Assembly: GCA_903813345.2 (NCBI GenBank)
Contig: CAIIXF020000012.1
Coordinates: 9,384,432 to 9,448,431, forward strand
DNA length: 64,000 nt
Origin: Owenia fusiformis
Taxonomy: Eukaryota; Annelida; Polychaeta; Sabellida; Oweniidae
Direction: 5' to 3'
Shown: positions 931-62,790 of the stretch, piece after piece
Numbering within the stretch: position 1 is the first letter of the stretch
Layout: each line of letters opens with the position of its first letter
The notes under the pieces: model-generated
What the model saw: only the letters and a program-made list of their open reading frames with translations
What the model was told of the DNA's origin: nothing
Databases searched by the model: none
Position numbers and translations under genes: made by a program

Positions 931-2100
931 ACCTACAAGGAATCAAATCCTTGGGATGCAAATCCTTGGGATGAAGCACTCACTGCAAGATACAAGTCAA
1001 AACTCCCCATATCAACACCAAAATATAGTCAAAAGTCAAAACTCAAAAGTCAAAACTCCCCATATCAACACCAAAATATAGAGACCTGCTCTCCCTTTGT
1101 ACCAAAGGCATCATACCTGAAGACTTCCACGATTATTACAAAAATATCTGTCACTTCAAAAATATCAAAAATCGTATCCCAATACCAGGGAGTGATGAGG
1201 AAGATGAAACTGATGATAAGTAACTAAGTATTGACTGAGGTTGAACTAGGGTTTTTGCAAAACTATTCACTTCACGTTTAGACCTGAATGTCAAAAGCAG
1301 TTTTATTAAGCAGTTTGACTTAATTAAGTGGCCTTATCCATATGTGTCATATATTATTATAATATTATATGTATTAAAGACCACTATATATGATATGTAA
1401 ACATAAGATATTACATGTAGATGTAGTTCTATTTGTAACAAGGCAACACATTCACTGGAAAGATTACTTTTACACTTTGACTATGTATTTGTACTGTACA
1501 GGTTGCAAAATAAACAAGCAAATGAATGGTTAAACTTAACATTGTTTCATTGCATTTTTTACTTTTTATGTATATTTAGAGGATTCAAAACATTAAACTC
1601 AAAAATATAGAAGACCAATGTTGAATTTGAACCTTAATAAACTTGAAACAATAACAAAATTATGTAGAAACAAAAAGATTCATATTTAAGTTGAGACAAA
1701 ATATAATCTCACGTTTACTAAAACTGATCAAAATCAAAAAGATTCATATTTAAGTTGAGACAAAATATAATCTCACGTTTACTAAAACTGATCAAAATCA
1801 AAAAGTCCCAACTACATTTTAATTAATTGCTCTTGATTAAGGAAATATTGTAAATTAATACTTGAGCATTATTGAAATATTGTAACAAGCATATCATCAA
1901 TTTTTTCCTGAAATTATATGGTCAATAATGTGGAAGTAATAACCAATCAAAAACTTTAAATGCTTTTTTCTCAAATATATGTGACGGAGTGATTTTCATG
2001 TTGTATTTTATAATTAATATCTTATACTTTTACTTTGTTTTTACTTTGTAAATTAATTAATGGAAACATGATACAAAAAGCATTTAGATAAACAACAGGT
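931..2100. other. AT-rich interval without a gene; one 64-bp tandem duplication
   Basis: No convincing ORF. At 1671-1806 a 64-bp unit starting GATTCATATTTAAG is present twice, head to tail and essentially identical, indicating a recent duplication. Short direct repeats also occur at 940-1080 (atccttgggatg, and a doubled run around caaaactccccatatcaac). Confidence 0.6.
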
Positions 2101-2129
2101 CATGTAGTACACCTGGGATATCTCTGGTC

Positions 2130-2352
2130 AATGTACTGAAAAATATACTGAATTTTAAGTACAAATTTAAGTCTAAATATGTACTGAAAAATGTACTGAA
2201 AATTTAAGGATGATTTTAAGTACAAATATATACTGAAAAATGTACTGAAATTTAAGTGCAAAAGTCAGTATAAAAATGTACTGAAAAATATACTGAAATT
2301 TAAGGATAAATTTAAGTATAAATATATGCAATGAGAAATATTTGTGCCCAAT
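2130..2352 (+). repeat. AT-rich array, left arm of an inverted array pair
   Basis: Loose tandem repeats of the words gtactgaaaaatatactg and aaatttaagtacaaat, with variable spacing. The reverse complement of the same words fills 3190-3545, so the two arrays face each other across about 0.85 kb and could fold into a long imperfect hairpin. Confidence 0.6.
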
Positions 2353-2390
2353 AATGGAAATAAGAGAAAACATAAATGTAAGGCATACTT

Positions 2391-2516
2391 TATAAACTCT
2401 AAATCACTCAAAAAGTTAGAATGGTGAAAAAGTGCATGATTTTAAAACAATTTTTGGCTGGGGGGGGGGTGGGTTAGCTTGGACCCCTGAACCCCCCCCC
2501 CCCCCCCCCAACAGGA
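2391..2516 (+). repeat. Dispersed repeat with G-run and C-run, copy 1
   Basis: It shares the core 'ctcaaaa..gtgaaaaa.tgcatgattttgaaa.aattttt' with copies at 12340-12500 and 17743-17946. After the core comes a run of G (2460-2469) and then a run of about 19 C, interrupted once. The C-run length may be unreliable in any assembly. Confidence 0.6.
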
Positions 2517-3189
2517 ATGCTATTACATTATGAAATTATTTTGGATGCTTCCTTTACAGCAGCCTTTAACCAAACTTAAAAGAGTCTCTCTGTAATCAGG
2601 TTTGTTGTGCCTTGTCAAAATATTTTGTTTTGTTAATGGATTAATAAAGTTTCTTTAGACACATCCTTTGAAGCAGACTCTAATCAAACTGGAGAGGCTA
2701 GGTTTACTGTAATCAAGTGTTTTCCTTTTAATAAGTTATGTTTTTGGATTAAATTATTTAAGACGCATCCTGTAATAATATCTGATTGCATTTTTTCCAT
2801 CAATAAATTTCTTTTTAGCCCGATCAAACCTATCAAAAAAAAATATAATGCATATATAAGGGTTATGTACTGGGAGGTTTTGGATACCCATATTTCCTGA
2901 GGGATAAACCCTTAATTTTAAAACTGATCGTACATAACATGTGTATTCCATACCTTTTGAGGTTTCTAGATACATTCTACCTTATTAAGTTCTAAAATTC
3001 AAAAACATTAAAGGTACACATTTTCTCAGTCTTAAAAATTAGATTTTCATGAGATTTTCACTCATATTGCTTGAGCAAATGAATTAATTGGTATCAAAAT
3101 TAAAATATATAACATGAACATAGAACCTCAATTGTTCGAGTATAGCAAAATCCATGGTATAGATGTCAAAGTCAGGAAGATGTCGTAAT

Positions 3190-3545
3190 TCAAAATCTAA
3201 GTATATTTTTCAGTATAAATTTACACTTAAATATGCCCTTAAATTTCAGTATATTTTTCAATCCATATTGGCACTTAAAATCATACTTAAATTTCAGTAT
3301 ATTTACCATCAAAAAATATAATGGTATAAGTACATATTTGCACTTAAAATCACACTTATAATTCAGTATATTTTTCAGTATAAATATATACTGAAAAATG
3401 TACTTAAAATTTCAGTACATTTTTCAGTACATATTTATACTGAAATTTTAAGTATATTTTTCAGTACATATTTATACTGAAAAATATACTTAAAAATTCA
3501 GTACATTTTTCAGTACATATTTGTACTGAAAACTCTCCTTTCAGT
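3190..3545 (-). repeat. AT-rich array, right arm of the inverted array pair
   Basis: Repeats of cttaaatttcagtatatttttcagtacata, the complement of the array at 2130-2352. Several internal near-palindromes occur, for example at 3368-3402 around tatttttcagtataaatatatactgaaaaa. The Ty3 LTR starts about 20 bp downstream. Confidence 0.6.
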
Positions 3546-3563
3546 ACAAATGCTCTGCCCTAG

Positions 3564-3733
3564 TGATATACTATATGCCATGTGAGAGATTTGGGTCACT
3601 TTCGGCCTAGACTTCAAAAAGACATAACTATAGTTAGCAGTAGATTAGAAGGAAATAACAAGTGAAATAAATAAAAGATAGAAATTAAAACATCACACTA
3701 TTGTGTACATTTAATATAAAGAAAGCCCGGTCA
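3564..3733 (+). repeat. 5' LTR
   Basis: It starts TGATATACTATATGCC and ends GCCCGGTCA, fitting the TG...CA rule. It matches 6120-6289 except at one internal base (aataacAagtg versus aataacGagtg) and at the first bases of the 3' copy. The exact edges are inferred from the limits of identity. Confidence 0.85.
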
Positions 3734-3767
3734 TATTTTGGTGGAGCTGCCTGAGGTTTAACAAACA

Positions 3768-4673
3768 ATGGATTTATCAATATTGGACAAATTCCATGGA
3801 AAATCAGAAGAAAACGTTACTATTTGGTTAAACACTATTGACACATTCGCAAATTTAAAGAACTGGAACCAACAAAGAAAATGTAGTCTAATCCCCCTGT
3901 TAGTTAAAGGAGAGGCAGCAAAATACTTTGAACAATTAGAGGAAGATACAAAGAACGACTGGGAGGAATTGACGGAAGCACTTAAAGAAAGGTTCCCACC
4001 CAAACAATCGGAAAGAAGGGAGTTGTTGGACAAATTGGATACTCTCAAACAAAATGATATGTCTGTGGATGAATTCCACAGCAAGCTCATGTATTATACC
4101 AGCAGACTAAAAAAGGATGCTGAGGATGTTAAAGAACTCTTTGTCCAAGGATTGAATACATCTACAAAGAACTTTGTAAGGCTCAAAGAACCTGACAGTT
4201 TAGAACAAGCTGTTAAGTTTGCAAGGATTCACAGCAACATGCCTCAAGATTCAGCACCAGAGATGTTAGCAGCCTGGATTAAAATTCTCACGGATAAAGT
4301 CGATAAGCAATCCGTTGCTGCAGTCACAGTTGATGCCATGGGTCAACGCCATACCAACAATAACCAGTTTCCTGTGCAACAAAGTGTCCAAAGACAGCAG
4401 AACCAGTATCAACCGCAGAACCAGTATCAACTGCAGAATCCGTTTCAACAACAGAACCAATTTTCTGGGAATCAACAGTTTAAGCAACAACAGAAACAGT
4501 ATCCCCAACATGACCAACAATTTATGCAGCAAAATCCATCAAGCAGAAACCAGTGTGAGAGGTGCGGTAAGTCAAACCACCTTTCATTCAATTGTTATGC
4601 TAGGTTTAAGCAGTGCTTTCAGTGTGGTCGCGGGGGGCATTATTCGTATATGTGTCGAAACGTTGCTAAATGA
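3768..4673 (+). CDS. gag: Gag polyprotein of a Ty3-type retrotransposon
   Basis: Intact 301-codon ORF, ATG 35 bp after the 5' LTR. Residues 1-155 form a retrotransposon gag (capsid-like) region with W..WL, a helix-rich middle and the typical ERF..........LL.KL stretch near residues 83-100. Residues 195-255 are very rich in Gln and Asn in short repeats (QNQYQ). Two CCHC zinc knuckles follow: CERCGKSNHLSFNC and CFQCGRGGHYSYMC, both exactly C-X2-C-X4-H-X4-C. Gag forms the particle and binds element RNA. It is the only intact ORF of the element. pol follows downstream after the stop. Confidence 0.9.
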   Translation: MDLSILDKFHGKSEENVTIWLNTIDTFANLKNWNQQRKCSLIPLLVKGEAAKYFEQLEEDTKNDWEELTEALKERFPPKQSERRELLDKLDTLKQNDMSVDEFHSKLMYYTSRLKKDAEDVKELFVQGLNTSTKNFVRLKEPDSLEQAVKFARIHSNMPQDSAPEMLAAWIKILTDKVDKQSVAAVTVDAMGQRHTNNNQFPVQQSVQRQQNQYQPQNQYQLQNPFQQQNQFSGNQQFKQQQKQYPQHDQQFMQQNPSSRNQCERCGKSNHLSFNCYARFKQCFQCGRGGHYSYMCRNVAK

Positions 4674-4758
4674 GGACTCGCGCCTGTTCCTCATAGGGAT
4701 GGGCACCTTGAAACTAAAGTTGACAATCAAAAGTTTAAACAAGTGAAAAGTGATAGTG

Positions 4759-6092
4759 GCAAGGTGGCCATCCCTGCAGTTCAATCAGTCAAGGTTAATT
4801 TGCAAAGATCAGTTTCAAACATAATTATTCATACAAACATAGTTGACAATAATATCAAAGCCTTGGTAGATACTGGTGCAGAACAATCCTGTATGAGATA
4901 AGCACTCTATGAAAAATTGAACTTGCACAAGAAATGTCCTATCAGTCCAACTAATATTGAGTTATATGGGGCTGGGGGAGAAACTCACAAGCTAAAAGTA
5001 CTGGGTGTGGCAAATGTTCCTCTAAAATTTGAAGAATTTGAGTACGTTCAACCGATGCATATCCTCAAAAGTCGCATCATGATGTAATTTTAGGTGAGGA
5101 CTTCTTCTTACAAAGTCAAGCACTCATAGACTTCACACAAAAAGTTGTCATTTTACAAAGGGGAGATCCTATTAAACATAGTATATATACTACTAATGAA
5201 CCAAGACTAACAGCATGTGTAAATAATGTAGCTATTAGTAGTGAAGTACAAACATCAGGTATCAATCTAGAGAAATGTAAATTACCAGAAGGGGAAAAGG
5301 CAAAATTGATAACTTTCATTGATAAAAATAAAGATGTCTTTTCTCAAAACATGAATGAGCTAGGCTGTGCAAATAGTACATATGAGCATGTTATAAGAAC
5401 AAAATCAGATAAGCCAGTCCAGCAAAGATTCTATAGGTATTCTCAAGAACAGAAAAATGAAATTGACAAACAATGTGACCAAATGTTAGAATATGGCATA
5501 ATTGAACATTCTGTGTCAGAATATGCTAGCCCTGTTGTGTTAGTGAAAAAGAAGTCAAATGAGTACAGGTTGGCAATAGACTACAGAAGGCTCAATAAAA
5601 ACACAGAAGCAATTCATTACCCTCTTCCACAATTAAATGACATTATAGATTGCATAGCACATTCAAAAGCAACAATATTTTCAGTTTTGGACATGCAAAG
5701 TGGGTTTTGGAAATTACCTCTTAGTGACGCCTCAAAAGCATAAAACGGCATTTGTTACCCACAAATTTCAGTTCAACAGAATGCCTTTTGGTCTCAAAAA
5801 TGCGCCAATGTCATTTCAGATGGTCATGAATGATGTTTTGAAAGGTCTTACATGGGACTTTGTGTTGGTTTACTGTGATGACATAATTGTTTTCAGTAAA
5901 GACATGAAACAGCATTTGGACCATTTAAATCAGGTATTCACAAGACTCAGAAATGCAAATTTGAAGCTGAAACCATCAAAATGCAAACTAGCACTGGAAC
6001 AGGTTGTTTATTTAGGTTTTGTCTTCACCAAAGAAGGTATAACAGTAGACCATGAAAAGATCAAGGCAATTCTATCTTACCCACAACTTTGA
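4759..6092 (+). pseudogene. pol: Broken pol: protease and reverse transcriptase
   Basis: The aspartic protease active site VDTGAEQSC is at about 4865-4892, but a TAA stop follows within a few codons (4899). The frame changes near 5060-5090, after which GEDFFLQ continues the protease end. Reverse transcriptase starts around 5400 (PVQQRFYRY), with YRLAIDYRRLNK at 5563 and SVLDMQSGFWKLPL at 5683. A frame change at about 5735-5745 is followed by RMPFGLKNAP and the catalytic YCDDIIVF (5871). The ORF stops at 6092 just after KCKLALEQVVYLGF, so connection, RNase H and integrase are absent. The palm motifs identify Ty3-type RT. The enzyme cannot be made intact. Confidence 0.88.
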
Positions 6093-16689: not shown

Positions 16690-17664
16690 GGGGAAATCAA
16701 AGTGGATATAGCACACAGGTTTGGAACGAGAGTTAAAGGTTCACGCCCAATTGTCACTGGCTAGGCTATAAACTGTTTCCTGTATAGGTACAGGGAAACA
16801 GGTATAGTCCAGGATCAACGAAAACCTGGCCCAAAATCAATATTGTAGCAACGATGTAGCAACGATATTTCAACTTGATCGAAAATACAATGTGAGAGAA
16901 CAATGAAACAACATTGCAGGACTTGGTGGCACTCCAGAAAAATAATTTTGGAGTTACATTTTCTGAAAAAACAATACAAAAGCGCGAAAAGCGCAAAAAG
17001 CTCAGATGGGTTCTCTGTGGGACACGCTATTGTCAAATGGTTAGAGAGGCTTAAAACCAAAGAGGCTAGCATTTGCCATCAAGAACATTGTGAACAAAGA
17101 ATCTTGTGATGCACAGACGAAACTACTGTGAAGGTGAAAAGTTCAACTGGGTGTTCTATGCACAAGAAAGGCGAGATTCGTCAGAAGGTGGCAAAGCCGA
17201 AGCATCTGTACTCTGTGCATGTATGGGCAGGAATCTCCTGCCACCGCAGTTTTTACATTCACAGGTATAATGGTTAGTACATTCAAACAACGCATTCTGA
17301 ATGATACCCTATTGCCATTTATCCACCAAGTTTACCTGGACGGTCATAGGTTGTGGCAAGATAATGATCCAAAGCATGTTTCAAAGGCCACATGGGAATG
17401 GCTAGATCAACAATCAGTCAACCACTCGGATACTCCGCCTGAAAGTCCAGATATGAACCCAATTAAAAACCTGTGGGCTGCTCTTACGCATTACATACAG
17501 AAGACCAAGAAACCAAGAAACCCAGAACTAAGGATGACTTAATCAGTGGCATCATGAAATTCTGGGATACTGTCACACCAGAAATGTGTAACAAGTACAT
17601 TGGTCCTATTTACCATGTCATGCCAGCTGTTGTATCTCACAAAGGCGCTGCAATGGGGTTCTAA
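16690..17664 (+). pseudogene. Tc1-type transposase, broken
   Basis: An N-terminal helix-turn-helix remnant, YRYRETGIVQDQRKPGPKS, is near 16780-16840. LKPKRLAFAIKN is near 17049 and the first catalytic Asp region, TDETTVKVKS, near 17114, then KPKHLYSVHVWAGIS. The second Asp is in RLWQDNDPKH (17350). The third position, normally Glu in NPIENLW, reads NPIKNLW here (17458), so the catalytic triad is lost. A frame change near 17500 leads to the C-terminus ending AAMGF. Several frameshifts and stops occur. Tc1 transposases cut and paste at TA. I did not find the terminal repeats with confidence. Confidence 0.75.
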
Positions 17665-23767: not shown

Positions 23768-23859
23768 TACAATAAAATTTTTATGCTATTAAACCTGTGT
23801 CAGTCATGAAATCATTTCCTCCTTTCTTATCTATACATTTAAATGTAGGCCTACCTTTC

Positions 23860-25130
23860 CTGAATCATTCATGTAATCAGCTATTTAAGCCCAATCAGCC
23901 TATTGATTTATTCATTTATTCATGAACCTTTCAAGAATAATTAATAAATAATACAATATGGTTTCAGTTGAATTCATGCACAATCCATGAATAATTCAGT
24001 ATCTTTAGAAATTCTTGTATAATATTCTTCATCTATGCAAAATGTTTTATTCATAAACTTTTCTTGAATAATTCATAAAATATAAAATTCTATGAATTTT
24101 TCATGGAATATGCTATTTCAATGCTTCAAATAACTTTGTGAATTATTTTCTTAATTTATGCATAATGCTTTATGCATGAACCGTTCCCAATCATTCATGA
24201 AAAAAGAATTAATTCCTAAAAAATCATGAACCATTTATAAATAAATTATAAAATTCTATGAATATTTAATGAAATATGATGATGTTTCCTTTATTTGTGA
24301 ACTTTTCTGAATCATTCATGAAATATAAAATCAGTTAATTCTTAGAAAGTCATGAACAAGTTTCTTCATTCCTGCATTATTTTGATTGTGAACTTTTCCT
24401 GAATCATTCATGAAATATAAAATCAATTAATTCTTCGTGAATAATATTCTCAATTTATGCATGATCCTTTATCCATGAACCTTTTCTGAATCATTCATGA
24501 AATATAAAATCAATTAATTCTTTAAAAAATCGTGAACAAGTTTCTTCATTTGTTCAATGTTTTAATTGTGAACTTTTCCTGAATCATTCATTTGTATTTC
24601 ATGCATAATTCATGAATAATTCTGATATCAATCCTTCCAAAAAAATTCATGAATAATATTCTCAATTTATGCATGATCCTTTATTCGTGAACCTTTTCTG
24701 AATCATTCATGAAAAATAAAATCAATTAATTCTTTAAAAAATCGTGAACAAGTTTCTTCATTCGTTCAATGTTTTAATTGTGAACTTTTCCTGAATCATT
24801 CATGAAATATAAACTTCTAAGAATATTTAGTGAAATATGATATATGTTTCATTTGTATTTCATGCACAATTCAAGGATAATTTAGTAAATGCATTCCTGA
24901 ACTATTCATAAATTTTATACCAAATAAAATCCTAATTTATTCTTTAAAAATCATCAAAAATTCATTTTATGCATTCATGAATTGTTCAAGGAAATATAAT
25001 TGATGAATATTTGAGGAATGTTCCATTTGTATTTCATACATTATACATGAATAGATCAGTAACAATATTCATTGTTCATGTAATGAATATTCATGAACAA
25101 TTCAGTGATATTCATGAATTATTCACAATC
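23860..25130 (+). repeat. AT-rich satellite of diverged repeats
   Basis: Words such as gaatcattcatgaaatataa, aatcaattaattctt and gtgaacaagtttcttcattg recur many times. A higher-order period of 212 bp is exact for ataatattctcaatttatgc (24441 and 24653). The whole stretch is rich in the self-complementary word attcatgaat. Confidence 0.7.
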
Positions 25131-25729
25131 TTTTCACAGAGGTCTAGCAGCCCCTACTAAGTTATAAAATAAAACGTAAGTCAGTCTCAGTCATAAACAA
25201 AATATTCTCGAGACATATAGATATAGGTCTACTTAGAAATAATAATCTATCAAATCTGTATTTGTCATTTGATTTGAAGACAACCTAAATGTTTATCCAA
25301 GCAGTTTCCAGATAAATGGATGGAACAGAAAAATTTAGAGTTAAGGTTCATGCTTTACATTCAATTTGATCTAAATGTCAGAAACTGATTCATGCTGACT
25401 TATCATGTAATCGTTAATCTTACTGCATCAGTATTTTGAATATGCATTCACGAGATATTTGGCTAAAGAAATAAAGAAATAAATTCAAAGAAAAAATATA
25501 ATACAGTGATGAAAATTGTACATAAATTGATGTCAAATTTATGAAATGAAAAAATGGCAAACTTCGCCCTGGACATTATTGGAAACATTTGAACAACCCA
25601 ATGGTATTTGGTCTCACAGATTCTGTGGACTGATCTTTACATAAGATTGTTGCTAACATATTCACGGTGTTATAGCATGACAGATACGACAAGGCAATTG
25701 GCCAAATTTTGCGGTAACGATAACAAAAA

Positions 25730-28380
25730 ATGGCGGACGGGAAAGACAGCATGTCCTCTTTTTCGCCTGTAGGCAAGATTCACAGGTAAGCTTTCCTTTT
25801 CAACTAGTTCCATTCGGTGATGCATATGTGAATGGTTATAAAGATTGAGTTAAATCTGTCGTTTGGTCTACAAGAAGCAGAATCTAAGCTGTAAACCTAC
25901 CCAGCTGAGATTTCGAAGTTCATAATTTTTAGTCCTTTTTCGTATTTTCTCAGTATATGTGCCTCAGAGCCACTCAAAATACTAACTGTTCGTAAACTGT
26001 GTATAAACAAGCCATAAAATGACAAATGCAGAACAGAAATGTGGTGAATATTGTAGAAAATAAGGTTTCAATCGCAAGGTCGTTAGACAGATACGTATGT
26101 ATTGCATGCTTTTTTATGGACAGCAACGCATTGTATTAGTTTTACATTAGATGTAACAGTCAAGTCAAGTAACTAAGTCAACATTCGAAAATAAAAATCT
26201 CAAAAATCGTACATCTTTGATTTCCAAAATAATTTGTGAGGTGGTTATTAAGATGATAATACATCTTTTAACGTATTAATTTTGAGTACATCTTGAATCC
26301 ATTCTCAACAAAGCGTTGTCGAAATAGGGATTCGAAATATTTGAGTTCGGGATGATAAAAGTACGTTAAGATATACCGCTCCTTAACAAACTCCTTTGGG
26401 AACAAGATATAGAATCAAATGCATATTCTTCTTATTTACTCCCTGACACATGCCAACGAATGTTACATCAGTTAATATCTCCGTTTTAAATAATTTTGTA
26501 AAACGTTGTTCTCTACAGGTGCCATTTTTACAATTGAAAAACAAAATTAAACATTTTGCATTTCTAAATTGATAAGTTTCTTGGAATACAACTTAACTGT
26601 TAACGATTTAAGTCATTAATAATATTTCCCTCAGTGATCCCATGCTAAATAGACAGTAACTAGGTTATTATTTTGTGTTCAACCTTGTTTTCATGACTTT
26701 TAAACATGAGTCGACAATTATGTAGGAAATTTCAATTCCAAATGTAAGCGTGTCAATTCTCCTGTTTTTGCACAAAATTTAGCCTTTTATAAAGATAGAT
26801 CGCCAAAATCTGCATGTACCTCTCAATGAGGCGACACATTTTTAAATTTATAGATGCTGAGCTCTTAACTCAAACAAAAATTCAAACCACCCGCTATTAA
26901 TTTGATTACACAAGACGAAATTTCCACTCCCGGGGAGCACTGTGGTAACACTTTGAAGGAGGATTCTTGAAAAATCGTTCGAATTTTCACAAAAGGTTTC
27001 ACGCAGTTTTATTGCTTTGTTAACACCTCGACTAAAATCATACTCAAATCCGATACCATAATTATAAATTAAAATGAAACATTAAACTCAGGTCAGGTTA
27101 TATGATAAACCGTTTCGAGAATTGATGATTTGAGTTAACTGTGTATATTTAAATAAATGAAAGTCGGCATGTACTCGACAGTTAATGTAGACACATGATG
27201 TATGCATCCACGTGTGACTTAAATATCGATTCATGACTATCATATTTGGCTTTCAAAAATTAAGTTGGAAGTTACAGTGGTTGGAGATTAACGAAAACGT
27301 CAATCACATCCGAATATCCGAACGACGTCAAGTATTAACAATACCCTTTTTGTGCATCTCGAACAAGGCAAGGTTCTGTGATCCAGCAATGTGCATTCCG
27401 AAAGAAAAAAAATCACATTTATCAACAAATTTCATTGAGTTGAATATTACATTCGAAATCACAACTTTCGAAATGTTTGTTTTAAACAAGAATTGTAAGA
27501 ACTTAAAACATGTTGTTAGTTTTTTAAACCGCATATCCTCATTTACGTTCTTTGACAAGGACGAATTCATTTGAAAACATGGATTTTCCTGATTATTCTT
27601 CAAAACTACCCTTGAAATATAAGTGTGTGGGATATTACAGTGTAAATTGACACGCATTTGTTTCCTCCATATCATGAAAAAATAAATGCAGTACCATCTT
27701 TCAATATTTGAAAACAAAAAGTTCATTCTGTATGTAAACAAGAAAAAATACATTTATGGTTGATTCATAATGAAAAATGCCAAATAACATACATGTTTTT
27801 AAGTAGGGGTATACAGGGACATAGTGGAAACTCCGAAATTTAGGCCATATCCCAAAGACTGCTTCACCAATATGTAACAGACCATCAAATTTACACGTTT
27901 GCTGATAGGTTTATTGAAAATAATTAAACTGAGGTTTACTTCAATTGTGGCACCATTCTTAGTTAATTTTGATGGACATACGAATATCGAATGTTGACTA
28001 AGTTACTTGGCTTGACCGGTAAGCGGACGGTTACATGCAAGTTCCTGTCAAGTCAAGGTCCCTAGATGGATAGCTCTCTATGTGTGAACTGCCTATATTT
28101 GTTTTCAGGACTCGCAAGAGACGCTCTTGCAATTACTTGAGCCTCTATAGGGCAAGGAAAAAAATAGCGAAAGCCAATGAAAGTGAAAATGATTGTAATG
28201 AAGAGGCAAAGGAAGAAATTAGTAACAACGAACAGGCGACGGAAGAAAACAACTCCAAATTAATTGATGATGTCATGAGTGACATTAGACATATATTACC
28301 ATTATTACAAATCATATTCAGCTGTTTATGTCACCATCTTCATAATAGTACAATAACGTCATTTCAAAGGGCAATATAGT
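25730..28380 (+). CDS. Two-exon ORF inside the CACGGTG element
   Basis: Exon 1 is 25730-25785: ATG in the context aaaaATGG, 42 bp inside the left TIR, encoding MADGKDSMSSFSPVGKIH and ending CACAG|GTAAGC. A 2.3-kb intron ends tgttttcag at about 28109, and exon 2 restores the Arg codon (AG|G) and stays open about 90 codons. It reads RTRKRRSCNYLSLYRARKKI, then an acidic stretch (ESENDCNEEAKEEISNNEQ). So the N-terminus is basic, then acidic. The frame then runs into a fold-back repeat (28342-28460), and the stop at 28378 lies in that insert, so the true C-terminus is lost or spliced elsewhere. I do not recognise the protein. Splice strength and phase agreement are what support it. Confidence 0.5.
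25790..28090. other. Interior of the TIR element (putative intron)
   Basis: About 2.3 kb of AT-rich sequence. Two overlapping opposite-strand ORFs of 113 and 141 codons (27233-27574 plus, 27328-27753 minus) have no recognisable motif, Kozak context or splice sites and are probably chance. Confidence 0.4.
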
Positions 28381-28460
28381 GAAATATTGGACCTAGGGCC
28401 GCAGGTCCAAGGTCCAATATTTCACTATTTTGCCCGCAGAAATGACGTGATTACTATTAT
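28342..28460. repeat. Fold-back hairpin with ~50-bp arms
   Basis: The left arm (28342-28394) and right arm (28410-28460) are inverted copies with few differences: ataatagt, then acgtcatttc, gggcaa and tagtgaaatattggacct, mirrored around the centre agggccgcaggtccaagg. Such snap-back units are typical short non-autonomous elements. It interrupts the exon-2 frame. Confidence 0.8.
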
Positions 28461-29169
28461 TACCACCGTTAATGCCCAGGGCTGAAATAGCAAATTTGAA
28501 ATAGAAAATCTTACGCACTGAACGATATCACTTTTCCCGGGAAACATAGCCGGGCGGATAATATCATTATTGCCCGACTAAAGTCATTAACGCCCGACAC
28601 AATATTGCTCACGTCAATATAGCAATTTAAATGCCTTCTCAACTAGTACTAAAACCCCTAGAACAGGCCCTGCAAGGTGGTAATAATACGATTTCATCTA
28701 TTATAGCTTACAAAACTCAAATCCGGTTGAAAAACATTTCAATTTTGGATCACAAGCGATATGAAATGATTCGGTTTTACATATATGAACGAGGTTCGCG
28801 TAACTGTCTATCAATTTTTGGCGTATCCGCAAATTCAAAATACATTATTATGGCTTGAGTAGAACATATTAAGTGGTTTACAATGCTTAATTGCCTTTGT
28901 ATGATCGTATGTAGGTCACATTTATATACACCAAGGTTGTTGCGCAATGTAGAGCATGCCCTAACGAGGAAAAGAAACAAATTACTAAATTTTATGAAGT
29001 TTTGAATTTCAAACTCAACAGTTTTTCGCTTATTTCATGTTATCCATGGGCGTCGATTTGCAAAGACTACGTTCAAAATAAACATTACTGAATGCATCAC
29101 CGAATGCGACTCTTACATAAACCTTTCATGCTTTTATTGATACGCAGTAGTAGAACATAATGCACCTAC

Positions 29170-29196
29170 CTTAGCTTTCTGTTTCATCGTGGCCAT
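29170..29196 (-). CDS. Possible start exon reading inward from the right TIR
   Basis: On the minus strand, 52 bp inside the right TIR, aaaATGG begins a 9-codon exon (MATMKQKAK) ending AAG|GTAGGT, a good donor in phase 0. With the plus-strand exon at 25730 this gives two genes pointing toward each other from the two ends. No second exon was found, so this remains tentative. Confidence 0.3.
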
Positions 29197-29279
29197 TTTA
29201 TTGGATAAATCAGTGATCGTATTCGACTAACCTCGTTTTCAGAGGTGGCGTATCCGTCATGCTATAACACCGTGATATT

Positions 29280-42527: not shown

Positions 42528-44060
42528 ATGTAGTTGAACCTTCATGAATTTATGATGTATTGCTGTTTACAGGCAGGGAAGTTCAAAGGCCAGTTTATGA
42601 CTAATAGCAAGAAGAGAAAGCATTTTGCAAAACATAAAATTGCTCAACTGAAAAAAAGTGAGTTATTGTTGCTATTAGGTAGACATGGTAGTTACCCTAG
42701 GGCAGAGCAATTGAGCCACTATATTCATATGTAATACAAATTTATCCCCAAAAGTGGCAGAAGCACCCACCCAAGATTTTGAAAAAGGCTTGAACAAGTG
42801 AATGTAAAACTCATTTTCTTGATTTTCTGATTTTCAAGTGGATGCAATTAAGATTTTTTAGGTGCAAGCTTCTTTAAAATGCCAATTTGTTCAGGACCCC
42901 ACTTGCTTTATTGTTGGTAAAATCACTTATGCCTTATTTGTTCTAATATAAATATATATTATATTATATAGCCATTTTTATGTGTGTTATATTACGATTT
43001 GCTATAACTGAAAAATTAGTATAAGGATTTGGTAAAAATGGCAGCCATGGCTATTCGATTGAATTTTCTACACTAATAATTTTTTATTTAGGTCAATGAG
43101 CTACACACCAGAACAGGTGTGCAGGGAATGATGATGTTTTATAATGAGGGTAGTGTAGAAATAGTATGTAAGTAAACACACATACGTTGTACCTGCTTTA
43201 AGTGGCATGTGTTTTCAATTTAATAATGTTAAAAAGGATATAAGAAATATTGAACAATTGTAATGATTTTAGAATTTGCAATGATTGTGTAGACATTACA
43301 AATACATCACAAACATTTGATAATCCTTCTGATTTCTCTCAAATCTTGTGCCTTATATTGTGACATGTATTAGGCTCTGGGAGAGTCCAAGGCTTTTGTG
43401 ACAAGGAACTCATCACAAAGTTATTGTCTAAAATAAACAGTAGTGAAGATTTACCTGAAGAACAAGATTGGAGGTTACCCTGTCAAGAATATGGTGACAT
43501 TTGTCACAACTGAAGACAGCAAAAAGCATAAATTGAAAAAAAGCACAGGAACAAGTAAGCTAACGAAGCTCGAGGATATCATAAGATCCATTGGAGTTAC
43601 TTTTAAAATATGGGACAAAAGAATGCCAACAATAGTTTGTCGGGAACTTATGATTTCACATCACTAATGGGTATTTAAATGAAATGCACACTGCAGACTC
43701 CCAGAACATTTTGACAAACTAATGGACAAAGAGGCTACAAGGCAGCTACAAGGCAGCTACATGCTCTTTGGACTCTATTCACTGAATTGTATTCTACTTT
43801 AGTCCAAACTTTCAATGACAGAAATGATGTAAAGCAGTTGCATGACAAATGTAAGACGTTTGTTCGGCAATACAATAACATACACAATGACCTTAAAATG
43901 GAATCGAAACATTACGCCTTATATACAAAACAAAAATATTATGAGGCATCCTTTAAACAATTCACAGGACAACATAGTAAAAACAAACTACATAATACGA
44001 AACATTCCCATGCGGAAGAGCAACAAGATGGATGGTACATTTGCATCAATGTGCGCCGTG
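42528..44060 (+). repeat. 1.5-kb direct repeat, unit 2
   Basis: Second copy of 41036-42527. Its C-terminal part keeps more sequence (HYALYTKQKYYEASFKQFTG then QHSKNKLHN) but has lost AKRNITPYMHAFVYHVP by a deletion. It also has a small duplication, caaggcagcta twice at 43738-43757. Differences between units are few, so duplication is recent. Confidence 0.75.
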
Positions 44061-44860
44061 AAGAGTGGAAAAAAACTTAACATCTTAAATGTAAAAAGAG
44101 GAACGGATCAAAAGAAGGCAAACCAAGAAAGCGGTTGAAAAATGCAATGATTGGTCTTTTACCCTCGGCAAAGGCGTACGCCAGCAGCAGGCTCAAGCTT
44201 AAAACATTATTTTGTGTAACATAAGAGGCTTAAGAAAATATTACATTGGGGGCTCATCCAGGTGGTCGACGTGTGATTACATTGGGGGCTCATCCAGGTG
44301 GTCGACGTGTGATTATCCTTGACATCTTTGGTGCTTTCGTGCAGATAGAAGTGCTTCAGAGACTGTGGCTGACTGTGGGTGGGATTTCCACTTTACACTT
44401 TAGATTTCCTCTATCAGCCAAGCATAGTCAAATTAGCAAAGTAGTTGGGAAAAATTGATGGGGTTTAAAGGTTCATGTCATGTTGGGAATGTGTTCTGAT
44501 TTACCCATAGTAAGCTTCAAAGTGGCTTGTACAGTTACTATTAAAATGTCAAGGTGACAAATAGTGACATAATACGAAACATTCCCATGCGGAAGAGCAA
44601 CAAGATGGATGGTACATTTGCATCAATGTGCGCCGTGAAGAGTGGAAAAAACTCAGCATCTCAAATGTAAAAAGAGGAACATATCAAAAGAAGGCAAACC
44701 AAGAAAGCGGTGAAAAATGCAATGATTGGTCTTATAGCCTCTGCAAAGGTGGCACACTCAAGGTTAAAACATTATTTTGTGTAACATAACAAAGTGGCTT
44801 GTACAGCTACTATTGAAATGTCAAGGTGACAAATAGTGGCATATCTGCTCATGAGCTATA
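44061..44860 (+). repeat. 3' region of the LGGDYKF family, duplicated
   Basis: acattcccatgcggaagagc and the following 80 bp occur at about 44004 and 44580, and aaagtggcttgtacag at 44519 and 44803. Between them is a sequence shared with 62765-62960: taaaacattattttgtgtaa, then tgggggctcatccag, then gcagatagaagtgcttcag. So the 3' part of one element has been copied with its flank. Confidence 0.55.
44247..44298 (+). repeat. Doubled tgggggctcatccagg motif (primer-site-like)
   Basis: TGGGGGCTCATCCAGG occurs at 44247 and 44283, a 36-bp tandem duplication, and once more at 62812. TGGGGGCTC followed by TCC is the primer-binding sequence complementary to proline tRNA in many retroelements. In each place an upstream acata/aaca precedes it, as an LTR end would. 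No gag or LTR pair is seen beside it. Confidence 0.45.
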
Positions 44861-48780: not shown

Positions 48781-51700
48781 TTAATACTTGAGCTTTATGT
48801 GCTTTATAAAACTGAAATCATTGGCATCATTTGAATGGTCACCAAGGGTCACCAAGGGTCACAGCAGCCCCACAAGCACCCTTTATAAAATGCTAAATAC
48901 GCTGGGGCTTAACCTGTACGATGACTATGGTCCTGAGAACATGACTGATAGCGAGAAGAGGAAGCATTTTGCAAAACACAAAATTGCTCAATTGAAGAAA
49001 GGGTTGAGTTACTGTTACTATTAGGTAGATAGCCTATGGCAAAGCCATTAATGTCAATTTGTTCAGGCGCCAACTTGCTTAATTGTTGGTAAAATCACTT
49101 ATGTCTTGTTCGTTCTAATATAAATAAATATTATATTATATAGCCATTTTTATGTGTGTTATAATATGATTTGCTATAACTGACAAATAAGGATTTGGTA
49201 AAAGGATTAGACATGGCTATTCGATGGACTTTGCTACACTGATAATTTTTTATTTAGGTCAAGTAACTACACACCAGAACAGGCGTGCAGGAAATGATGA
49301 AGTTTTATAATGAGGGCAGTGTAGAAATAGTATTTAAGTAAACATACATACGATGTACTGTACCTGCTTTTAAGTGACATGTGTTTTCAATTTAATAATG
49401 TTAAAAAGGAGATCAGAAATATTGAACAATTGTAATGATTTTTGGCTTGAAACATGGACTTCTAAATGTAAAATTTGCAATGATTGTGTAGACATTACAA
49501 ATAGATCACAAACATTTGATAATCCTTCTGATTTCTCTCATATCCTTTGCCTTATATTGTGACATGTATTAGGATAAAATAAGGCAGCTGATGTTTAAGG
49601 TTCTTGGAGAGTCCAAGGCTTTTGTGACAAGGAACTCATCACAAAGTTATTGTCTAAAATAAACAGTAGTGAAGATTTACCTCAAGAAAAAGATTCACCT
49701 AAAGGTAATCATATTATTATTATTAGAATATATGTGATGAAATGCTGCCCATATCCAAAATCCTACTTACTTGCCCTTTTAATTCTAATATTCATGTCAA
49801 ACTAAACAGAATATGATTGAAAGCATGACATATGGAAATCAACTTAGTTGTCATCACTGCTTGAAAGTCACTTTCAAGTAGCACTAAGTGGCCCTACCAG
49901 GATAATAGAAGCAAAAGTAGTCATAAGTGGTCAAGGTATTCAGGTATCAAATCTTATGGTAATATATGAAACATCAAGTGTACTATGTAAGTTTTTACAG
50001 CAAATTAAATAATTAAATGTTACTTTATTGTGACATAATTTATGTACAAAATCCGATTTAATTTATTATATGAATGATGGATTGAATTCTTCAGAGAATT
50101 TAGTGTAAATGCTAGCTTGTTTCTCAGCTGACATAGGTAACATGTTTGATGTTGATGCGAAGAGCAGATATGTTGATCAGCCAACATAGGTAACATGTTT
50201 GATGTTGATGCGAAGAGCAGATATGTTGATCAGCCAACATAGGTAACATGTTTGATGTTGATGCGAAGAGCAGATATGTTGATCAGCCAACATAGGTAAC
50301 ATGTTTGATGTTGATGCGAAGAGCAGATATGTTGATCAGCCAACATAGGTAACATGTTTGATGTTGATGCGAAGAGCAGATATGTTGATCAGCCAACATA
50401 GGTAACATGTTTGATGTTGATGCGAAGAGCAGATATGTTGATCAGCCAACATAGGTAACATGTTTGATGTTGATGCGAAGAGCAGATATGTTGATCAGCC
50501 AACATAGGTAACATGTTTGATGTTGATGCGAAGAGCAGATATGTTGATCAGCCAACATAGGTAACATGTTTGATGTTGATGCGAATAGCAGATATGTTGA
50601 TCAGCCAACATAGGTAACATGTTTGATGTTGATGCGAATAGCAGATATGTTGATCAGCCAACATAGGTAACATGTTTGATGTTGATGCGAATAGCAGATA
50701 TGTTGATCAGCCAACATAGGTAACATGTTTGATGTTGATGCGAAGAGCAGATATGTTGATCAGCCAACATAGGTAACATGTTTGATGTTGACGCAAGTAG
50801 CAGATATGTTGATCAGCCAACATAGGTAACATGTTTGATGTTGATGCGAATAGCAGATATGTTGATCAGCCAACATAGGTAACATGTTTGATGTTGATGC
50901 GAAGAGCAGATATGTTGATCAGCCAACATAGGTAACATGTTTGAGGTTAATGCAAAGAGCAGATATGTTGATCAGCCAACATAGGTAACATGTTTGATGT
51001 TGATGCGAAGAGCAGATATGTTGATCAGCCAACATAGGTAACATGTTTGATGTTGACGCAAGTAGCAGATATGTGGATCAGCTGAGGAGCATTGTAGCTG
51101 CAACTCTTAAAAGGACCTCAGGTACAGTATAATGATCTTGTGTTAGTTGTCTGATCTTAGTATGGTTTGTGTACGTACAACTATAGATTACAAATCTCAA
51201 TCGATCAGTTGTATGCCTGACACAACTGTTTTCCTCTTTAAATGCGTATTATGGAAGAACCTGCAACATGAAACAGATTAAATCACAAATTAGTTCTAAC
51301 TGAATATTTTGTTAAATTGTATATTATGTCAGCCCATTCTGAATTAATTGTGATGATGGGTAAATTATATGAAACAATAGGTCATGGACGTAAATCAAAA
51401 TGGTTTCCTGAAAACAAGCCAGAATGGTCGCCACAGGGTATTGTCTTCTGGTCCCCGAATGCAGGAAGTAAGTCTCAAGTCTGTTTAGTACCGCCAGAAT
51501 GCCAAAATATTTGGATGTATATCAAACCATATTAGACCTTTTCGATAAATTCAATCAATATTCTCCATTAATTATTTTTATTATTTTTTTATTGAAAAAT
51601 ATTATTATAGTGTCTCTAGTTTATACATACATTTTGACAATAAATAACATTTTTTATAATACCACCAGCCGATGGTGGCTTATGAGACACTGGTCATTAT

Positions 51701-61749: not shown

Positions 61750-62790
61750 CAAAGGTAGAATGAAATCTTTGTTTCATTAAAGAGATCAATGGAGTCATAG
61801 AAAAGGGTTTCATTAAAGAGATCAATGGAGTCATAGAAAAGGGTTTCATTTCAGAAGATGGCGTGGATCAGTCAGTGAAAATAGTCCTTAGAGGAGACTT
61901 CAAGTTTTTACTCTTCGCTATGGGTTTGTCAGGGGCCAAGTCGGATCATGCATCCGACTTGGATTACTGAATTACCACTACTTAATGTCAGCTCAAAAAA
62001 CATAGTGTTGGATGAGCTACACGTGTTATTGAGGATTGGAGGTTGCCTTGTCAAGAATATGGTGACATTTGTCACAACTGAAGACAGCAAAAAGCATAAA
62101 TTGAACAAAAGCAGAGGAACAAGCTCGAGGATATCATGGGATCCATTGGAGTTACTTTTAAAATATGGGACAAAAGAATGCCAACAATAGTTCGTCGGGC
62201 ATTTATGATTTCACGTTACTAATGGGAATTTAGATGAAATGCACAGTGAAGAGACTCCCAGAACATTTTGACAAACTAATAGACAAAGAAGCTGCAAGGC
62301 AGCTACATGCTCTTTGGACTCTATTCACTGAATTGTATTCTACTTTAGCTCAAACTTTCAATGACAGAAATGATGTAAAGCAGTTGCTTGAGAAATGTAA
62401 GATGTTTGTTCGGCAAAACAATAACATATACAACAATGACCTCAAAATGGAAGGATTTGCCAAACGAAACATTACTCCTTATATGCATGCTCTTGTATAT
62501 CATGTCCCCCATCAAATTTTGAGGCATAAGTCCTTTAAACAACTCGCAGGACAACATAGAAAAAACAAACAACATATTACGAAACATTCACATGCAGAAG
62601 AGCAACAAGATGTGTCAATATGCACCTTGAAGTGGAAAAAACTCAGCATCTCAAATGTAAAAAGAGGAACAGGACAAAAGAAAACCAAGAAAGTGGTTGA
62701 AAAATTCAATGATTGGTCTTTTAGCCTTATAGGTACAGGCGTACGCCGGCAGCACACTAAAGATTAAAACATTATTTTGTGTAACATAAG
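61750..62790 (+). pseudogene. LGGDYKF-family gene, best C-terminal copy
   Basis: A 39-bp in-frame duplication (61769-61846) gives FIKEINGVIEKG twice, followed by FISEDGVDQSVKIVLRGDFK and FLLFAMGLSGAKSDHA. Then, after a frame change, LLNVSSKNIVLDELHVLLRI and GGCLVKNMVTFVTTED. A stop-broken stretch leads to a 177-codon ORF (62234-62767): KRLPEHFDKLIDKEAARQLH, ALWTLFTELYSTLAQTF, AKRNITPYMHALVYHVPHQI, then SFKQLAGQHRKNKQ. In other members GQ.VEKNND follows TPYMH.L.YHVP; here GQHRKNKQ is a variant. It is the fullest copy but still has at least two frame breaks. Confidence 0.65.
62234..62767 (+). CDS. 177-codon ORF, C-terminal half of the LGGDYKF-family protein
   Basis: This is the longest open piece of the family here. 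It runs from MKCTVKRLPEHFDKL through the TPYMH..VYHVP segment to a Lys-rich C-terminus (NVKRGTGQKKTKKVVEKF). The start codon is probably internal to a longer original frame. No catalytic residues are known to me. See the gene entry for context. Confidence 0.55.
   Translation: MKCTVKRLPEHFDKLIDKEAARQLHALWTLFTELYSTLAQTFNDRNDVKQLLEKCKMFVRQNNNIYNNDLKMEGFAKRNITPYMHALVYHVPHQILRHKSFKQLAGQHRKNKQHITKHSHAEEQQDVSICTLKWKKLSISNVKRGTGQKKTKKVVEKFNDWSFSLIGTGVRRQHTKD

Follow-up and report, generated by a model that had tools for sequence, protein, structure and literature searches.

Transposons of the CACTA/EnSpm, Mirage, Chapaev and Transib families, together with others, are described as having mostly CA..TG ends and target duplications of 2-5 bp, and some hAT families are listed with 5-bp duplications too (PMC12730594). 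Tips of CAC are reported for EnSpm, Transib and RAGL elements (PMC12730594, PMC7204232), and the protostome RAGL consensus is given as CACTWMCAAACKTYKBB, with AAA at positions 8-10 (PMC7204232); section 6 of that review reports non-autonomous RAGL elements from an oyster and from several deuterostomes. The target duplications of ProtoRAG, Transib and RAG are described as GC-biased, and the terminal inverted repeats (TIRs) of ProtoRAG as carrying a YY1 site at their inner end (PMC8289069); the duplication given for Hztransib is GCTCG. With vertebrate RAG, CACGGTGTT is reported to perform well, standing second (0.925) in the TT-spacer column of the published table, above CACAGTGTT at 0.829 (PMC9723617).

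Here we describe a 3612-bp element at 25663-29274 of a 64-kb window, the window being the whole stretch of DNA that was analysed. On balance we regard it as a eukaryotic DDE transposon of the cut-and-paste type, present as a decayed and probably non-autonomous copy. The original prediction, in which a cut-and-paste element ends in CAC and carries two inward-facing start exons, is supported, and its fallback, a non-autonomous derivative or an unnamed class, holds up as well.

Ends and target duplication

The borders of the element are marked by the following features:

25658-25662, no strand: left target duplication ATATT (identical 5-bp flanks)
25663-25688, plus strand: left terminal inverted repeat, 26 bp, starting CACGGTG (inverted-repeat match)
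29249-29274, minus strand: right terminal inverted repeat, 26 bp, 25/26 identical to the left (inverted-repeat match)
29275-29279, no strand: right target duplication ATATT (identical 5-bp flanks)

The predicted 26-bp inverted ends, starting CACGGTG and carrying one mismatch, were confirmed, with 25 of 26 positions agreeing between 25663-25688 and 29249-29274 and a single A/G difference at position 20. Allowing up to 3 mismatches, the 26-bp pattern has only these two sites in the 64 kb and none in 100 shuffles, and CACGGTG is found at both element tips and at no other site of the window. The exact inverted run of the ends is 20 nt long, including one base outside, and in 60 first-order Markov copies of the window exact inverted matches 0.2-15 kb apart reached 18 nt at most. 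Five inverted runs in the window exceed 20 nt, all of them within the AT-rich repeat region at 2131-3532, where CAGTACA/TGTACTG-type units lie in both orientations. The ATATT said to flank both ends is there, identical over 5 bp, a match with a chance of about 0.0016 (calculated by hand from base composition). Terminal inverted repeats (25/26) and a target site duplication, as expected of a TIR DNA transposon, are both present.

The same letters fit a second set of borders, with ends TCACGGTG..CACCGTGA (a TCAC tip) and a 3-bp duplication TAT, because ATATT starts with A and finishes with T; tips of CAC are compatible with the 5-bp duplication only, and 3 bp needs the tip TCAC. Borders, duplication length, parent and class are all read from one copy, the present sequence. 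The exact 19-nt end gave 0 matches, an outcome of little weight, in each of two collections holding few or no eukaryotes (genome_contigs and viral_contigs), and part of the exon-2 peptide had no relative in viral_contigs. When the 1-kb flanks were joined in a search for an unoccupied site, their matches within the window were confined to the flanks themselves and to repeats left of the element, and no empty copy was seen. A degenerate repeat array (23853-25062) lies close to the element on that side and was recognised by many self-matches of the left flank.

Start exons, subterminal motif and interior

Inside the ends, the following features were recognised:

25727-25734, plus strand: AAAATGGC, facing inward, with YY1-type core and good start context (motif scan)
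25730-25785, plus strand: exon 1 of the plus gene, 56 nt long, with donor CAG/GTAAGC (open frame to the donor)
25811-25825, plus strand: subterminal motif CATTCGGTGATGCAT, left copy (exact inverted match)
26157-28018, no strand: probable nested element with 32-bp inverted ends (inverted-repeat match)
28109-28379, plus strand: exon 2 of the plus gene, continuing the frame of exon 1 (acceptor, codon score)
28342-28460, no strand: hairpin or foldback, about 120 bp long (83% complementarity between the arms in an alignment of 121 positions)
29092-29106, minus strand: subterminal motif CATTCGGTGATGCAT, right copy (exact inverted match)
29170-29196, minus strand: first exon of a putative minus gene, 27 nt, MATMKQKAK, donor AAG/GTAGGT (open to the donor)
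29192-29199, minus strand: AAAATGGC, facing inward, right copy (motif scan)

An ATG with a good donor lies just inside each end, as predicted, at 25730 on the plus strand (CAG/GTAAGC) and at 29196 on the minus strand (AAG/GTAGGT). By criteria that were set after the case was seen, a start in good context and open to a good donor this close inside is found at 0.17% of window positions (about 3e-6 for both ends), and without the context rule at 0.53% (2.8e-5 for both ends). The plus first exon (25730-25785) splices in frame, through the acceptor TTTTCAG, to 28109, and the joined reading begins MADGKDSMSSFSPVGKIHRTRKRRSCNYLSLYRARKKIAKANESEN... The second exon had been placed at 28110; in the open phase its start moves to 28109. 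It is coding-like up to about 28340, where it enters the hairpin, and reaches a stop at 28377-28379. Among the six reading frames across 28110-28340, this is the one whose codon score is above zero; outside the training frames 25 of 1580 overlapping 77-codon stretches free of stops score at least as high, and with those frames included 492 of 2785 do. The codon training drew on nine frames of this window, some unassigned and several being remains of mobile elements, and exon 2 shows a flat G+C across codon positions (38/32/38%), so that the support for coding is moderate.

For the minus gene, 15 candidates for a second exon (the longest) were inspected by eye and none pairs a good acceptor with protein-like sequence. 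Since no convincing second exon was found, it is the first exon that argues for this second gene, and of the predicted convergent two-gene layout, start exons are present at both ends, and a second exon was recovered for the plus gene only. The element has 12 open frames that reach 60 aa, and for none of them did Pfam give a transposase match. The spliced plus N-terminus gave no Pfam hit with an E of 1 or below, nor did a PDB search with the 85-aa minus frame at that limit. Two weak Pfam matches of element frames (E 0.14, to an unrelated family, and E 0.3) and six PDB matches of the spliced plus N-terminus (E 0.42 to 1.6) were judged to be chance.

Further inside the ends lies a feature that is new relative to the original prediction, the 15-nt CATTCGGTGATGCAT, present as exact inverted copies at 25811-25825 (plus) and 29092-29106 (minus) and absent elsewhere in the window. 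For the 250-nt stretches just inside the ends, an exact match of this length was equalled by one simulated pair out of 2000 and by none of 2771 real control pairs (3000 drawn, of which 229 had been dropped beforehand for lying less than 500 nt apart or starting at 1600-3600). The order of parts is identical at both ends, running from the tip to AAAATGGC with its start codon, then to the splice donor and then to the 15-mer. The 8-mer AAAATGGC is not rare, with 20 occurrences in the window; the probability that its wider form AANATGGC points inward no more than 80 nt from each end is about 3e-4, a figure that overlaps the start-exon test and is not independent of it. The arrangement looks like an end module, in which tip and 15-mer would serve as terminal and subterminal sites. 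From the 15-mer inward the two ends can be aligned over 149 positions at 61% with 11 gaps under permissive scoring, and because of this alignment the ends may be diverged copies of one module, the right start then being a mirror of the left, which speaks against two genes.

The plus intron contains a second inverted pair, at 26157-28018 (1.86 kb), whose 32-bp ends C(A/G)GTCAAG.. carry 3 differences and are flanked by a possible 4-bp duplication, GTAA; this pair is probably a nested element. A 141-aa minus frame at 27328-27753 lies within it, has no Pfam match and was set aside. The hairpin at 28342-28460 interrupts plus exon 2, and the surrounding 28330-28650, folded as single-stranded DNA, gives a z of -9.1 against 100 shuffles. 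Beyond the hairpin, up to about 28600, scattered GCCC-containing units were seen by eye.

Elsewhere the window holds a Ty3-type retroelement at 3762-6092, with capsid/gag and reverse transcriptase in separate frames, a 53-bp unit repeated in tandem about 18 times at 50124-51082 (97% matches), and at 17138-17542 a DDE_3 transposase fragment, which we take to be probably from a Tc1/mariner-type element. The Ty3-type capsid, the reverse transcriptase and DDE_3 frames and the spliced structure suggest that the host is a eukaryote. Two other proteins of the window had no relative in viral_contigs, and one of these had none in genome_contigs either. Two related frames, at 43715-44080 and 62234-62767, share QLHALWTLFTELYST and FNDRNDVKQL (by eye); their Pfam matches are below the curated cut-offs (AATase at E 0.0016 and EF-hand at E 0.063, respectively), and to us they are reminiscent of KDZ-type transposase ends.

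Relation to RAG-type elements and competing readings

The original prediction linked the ends to RAG and ProtoRAG, a link that the present analysis leaves unsupported, with tips that disagree beyond CAC, no nonamer at a spacing of 12 or 23, a duplication of A and T only and no RAG match in Pfam for the 12 frames of at least 60 aa. The CAC tip and the 5-bp duplication (to which the 3-bp alternative exists) are shared with RAGL and ProtoRAG, and CACGGTGTT is the same as the first nine letters of the element tip. Against the protostome RAGL consensus, a comparison valid only for a protostome host, the agreement past CAC is 4 of 14 positions at each end, where random sequence would average 5.9, and the AAA is missing from tip positions 8-10. 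At spacings of 11-13 and 22-24 the nonamer was matched at no more than 4/9 positions on the left and 5/9 on the right, the best match in the first 60 nt being 6/9, at the left end, at spacings 10 and 47. The duplication ATATT contains neither G nor C, although GC-richness is a bias and one case is hence weak. The YY1-type core in AAAATGGC lies 65-83 nt inside, outside the 26-bp tip, in the sense opposite to that in TR5 and with 7/9 matches, and it is also explicable as plain good start context. No RAG1-like core or RAG2-like propeller was found with Pfam in any of the 12 frames of at least 60 aa or in the spliced N-terminus; the prediction had itself noted neither a RAG1-like core nor a nonamer, in agreement with what we found in these frames and at the 12/23 spacings. 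A literature search for CACGGTG together with Transib gave no match. The moth Hztransib may have a CACGGTG tip, on which no weight is placed here. A tie to RAG is therefore possible and yet not supported, since the comparisons of tip, nonamer, duplication and YY1 site go against it.

By its tip the element appears to fit the broad CACTA-Mirage-Chapaev-Transib group best, because its ends read CA..TG and its duplication does not exceed 5 bp, although tip and duplication do not make membership; an ordinary CACTA/EnSpm reading, a CAC tip with a 2-3 bp duplication, does not fit unless the tip is shifted one base further out. A descent from Transib or from RAGL/ProtoRAG, in which RAG1L and RAG2L would have begun at opposite ends before their coding cores were lost, is a special case within this broad group and in our view unlikely. 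It would account for the CAC ends, the 5-bp duplication and the convergent start exons; CACGGTGTT scores 0.925 against 0.829 for CACAGTGTT (PMC9723617), non-autonomous RAGL copies are reported from an oyster and several deuterostomes (PMC7204232), and the YY1 site of the ProtoRAG TIRs has a possible counterpart in AAAATGGC at both ends. This is countered by the 4/14 agreement beyond CAC against 5.9 at random, with no AAA at 8-10, by the absence of the nonamer at a spacing of 12 or 23, by ATATT as against GC-biased duplications (PMC8289069) and the GCTCG of Hztransib, by a YY1-type core that lies 65-83 nt inside, is reversed relative to TR5 and matches at 7/9, and by the lack of a RAG match in Pfam. 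Unlikely as well, and offered tentatively, is a two-gene, convergent, CAC-ended and 5-bp-duplicating lineage that would be a sister of the RAG-type layout or parallel to it. That such a lineage would differ from the described RAGL families by its tip and by a subterminal motif at both ends is a suggestion we make with equally little confidence.

A transposon with a single gene, Chapaev- or CACTA-like, of the hAT5 type or unnamed, in which the right start exon mirrors the promoter of the left end or is an antisense start and no second gene, is a serious alternative, if one we consider the less probable. AAAATGGC and the 15-mer are common to both ends in the same order, the 149 positions alignable at 61% from the 15-mer are what diverged end modules would give (a point weakened by the AT-rich DNA), and the minus second exon was not found. 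Against it, apart from the start motif no shared block was noted in the interval from the 29-bp tip to the 15-mer, each start exon has a donor of its own, and CAC is untypical of hAT tips. For the hAT version, hAT5 is described as giving 5-bp duplications (PMC12730594). The borders themselves may be misplaced, the true ends being TCACGGTG..CACCGTGA with a TAT duplication, in which case the element would not be a 5-bp maker; the letters fit both readings, but the match is longer at 5 bp and CAC is the tip reported for EnSpm, Transib and RAGL, so we hold this to be improbable. That there is no element at all, the inverted ends being a chance match or an unrelated repeat, would be in keeping with the single copy, but it is opposed by the uniqueness of the ends, the 20-nt run, the identity of the flanks, the 15-mer and the start-exon statistics, and its probability is close to nil.

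For the decayed cut-and-paste copy that we favour, a transposase supplied by a full-length relative would have bound the ends (26-bp tip and 15-bp subterminal motif), excised them and linked them to a target cut with a 5-bp stagger, the repair of which would have produced ATATT at both sides. The parent probably had two convergent genes starting from its ends, and this copy would have lost most of both and been hit by the probable nested element in the plus intron and by the hairpin in exon 2. As it is, the locus adds one transposon relic of unsettled family to a repeat-rich eukaryotic stretch, and its likeness to the ancestors of the antibody-shuffling enzyme is superficial. If a full-length relative had two convergent genes without a RAG1 core, a layout regarded as typical of the V(D)J ancestor would have evolved at least twice; if it had a RAG1-like core, the known range of RAG-type ends would be widened.

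Comparison with known systems

With protostome RAGL (RAGL_B/RAGL_D) the element shares the CAC tip, the 5-bp duplication, inward starts at both ends and the existence of non-autonomous copies, whereas its tip beyond CAC departs from CACTWMCAAACKTYKBB, its duplication is AT-only and no RAG1L/RAG2L sequence was found in it. Lancelet ProtoRAG is alike in its heptamer-like CAC tip, its 5-bp duplication, a YY1-type core near both ends and a start at each end, and unlike in the tip CACTATG, in a YY1 site that lies within the TIR in the other sense, in coding cores that are present and in a GC-biased duplication. Among the remaining families, Chapaev duplications measure 3-4 bp and typical hAT tips are not CAC.

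The hAT5 elements resemble ours in their 5-bp duplication (PMC12730594), and differ in that no hAT sequence was found in the element. Transib has the 5-bp duplication and the CAC tip in common with it, but the known Transibs are described as encoding one protein (PMC4411706) and their duplications are GC-biased, and no transposase was found in the element. Nor was a transposase found that would point to CACTA/EnSpm, Chapaev or other CMC elements, and the duplication of EnSpm, unlike that read here, is given as 3 bp (PMC12730594). Across the wider group of CACTA/EnSpm, Chapaev and other CMC elements, the likeness lies in the CA..TG ends and in duplications of 2-5 bp (PMC12730594).
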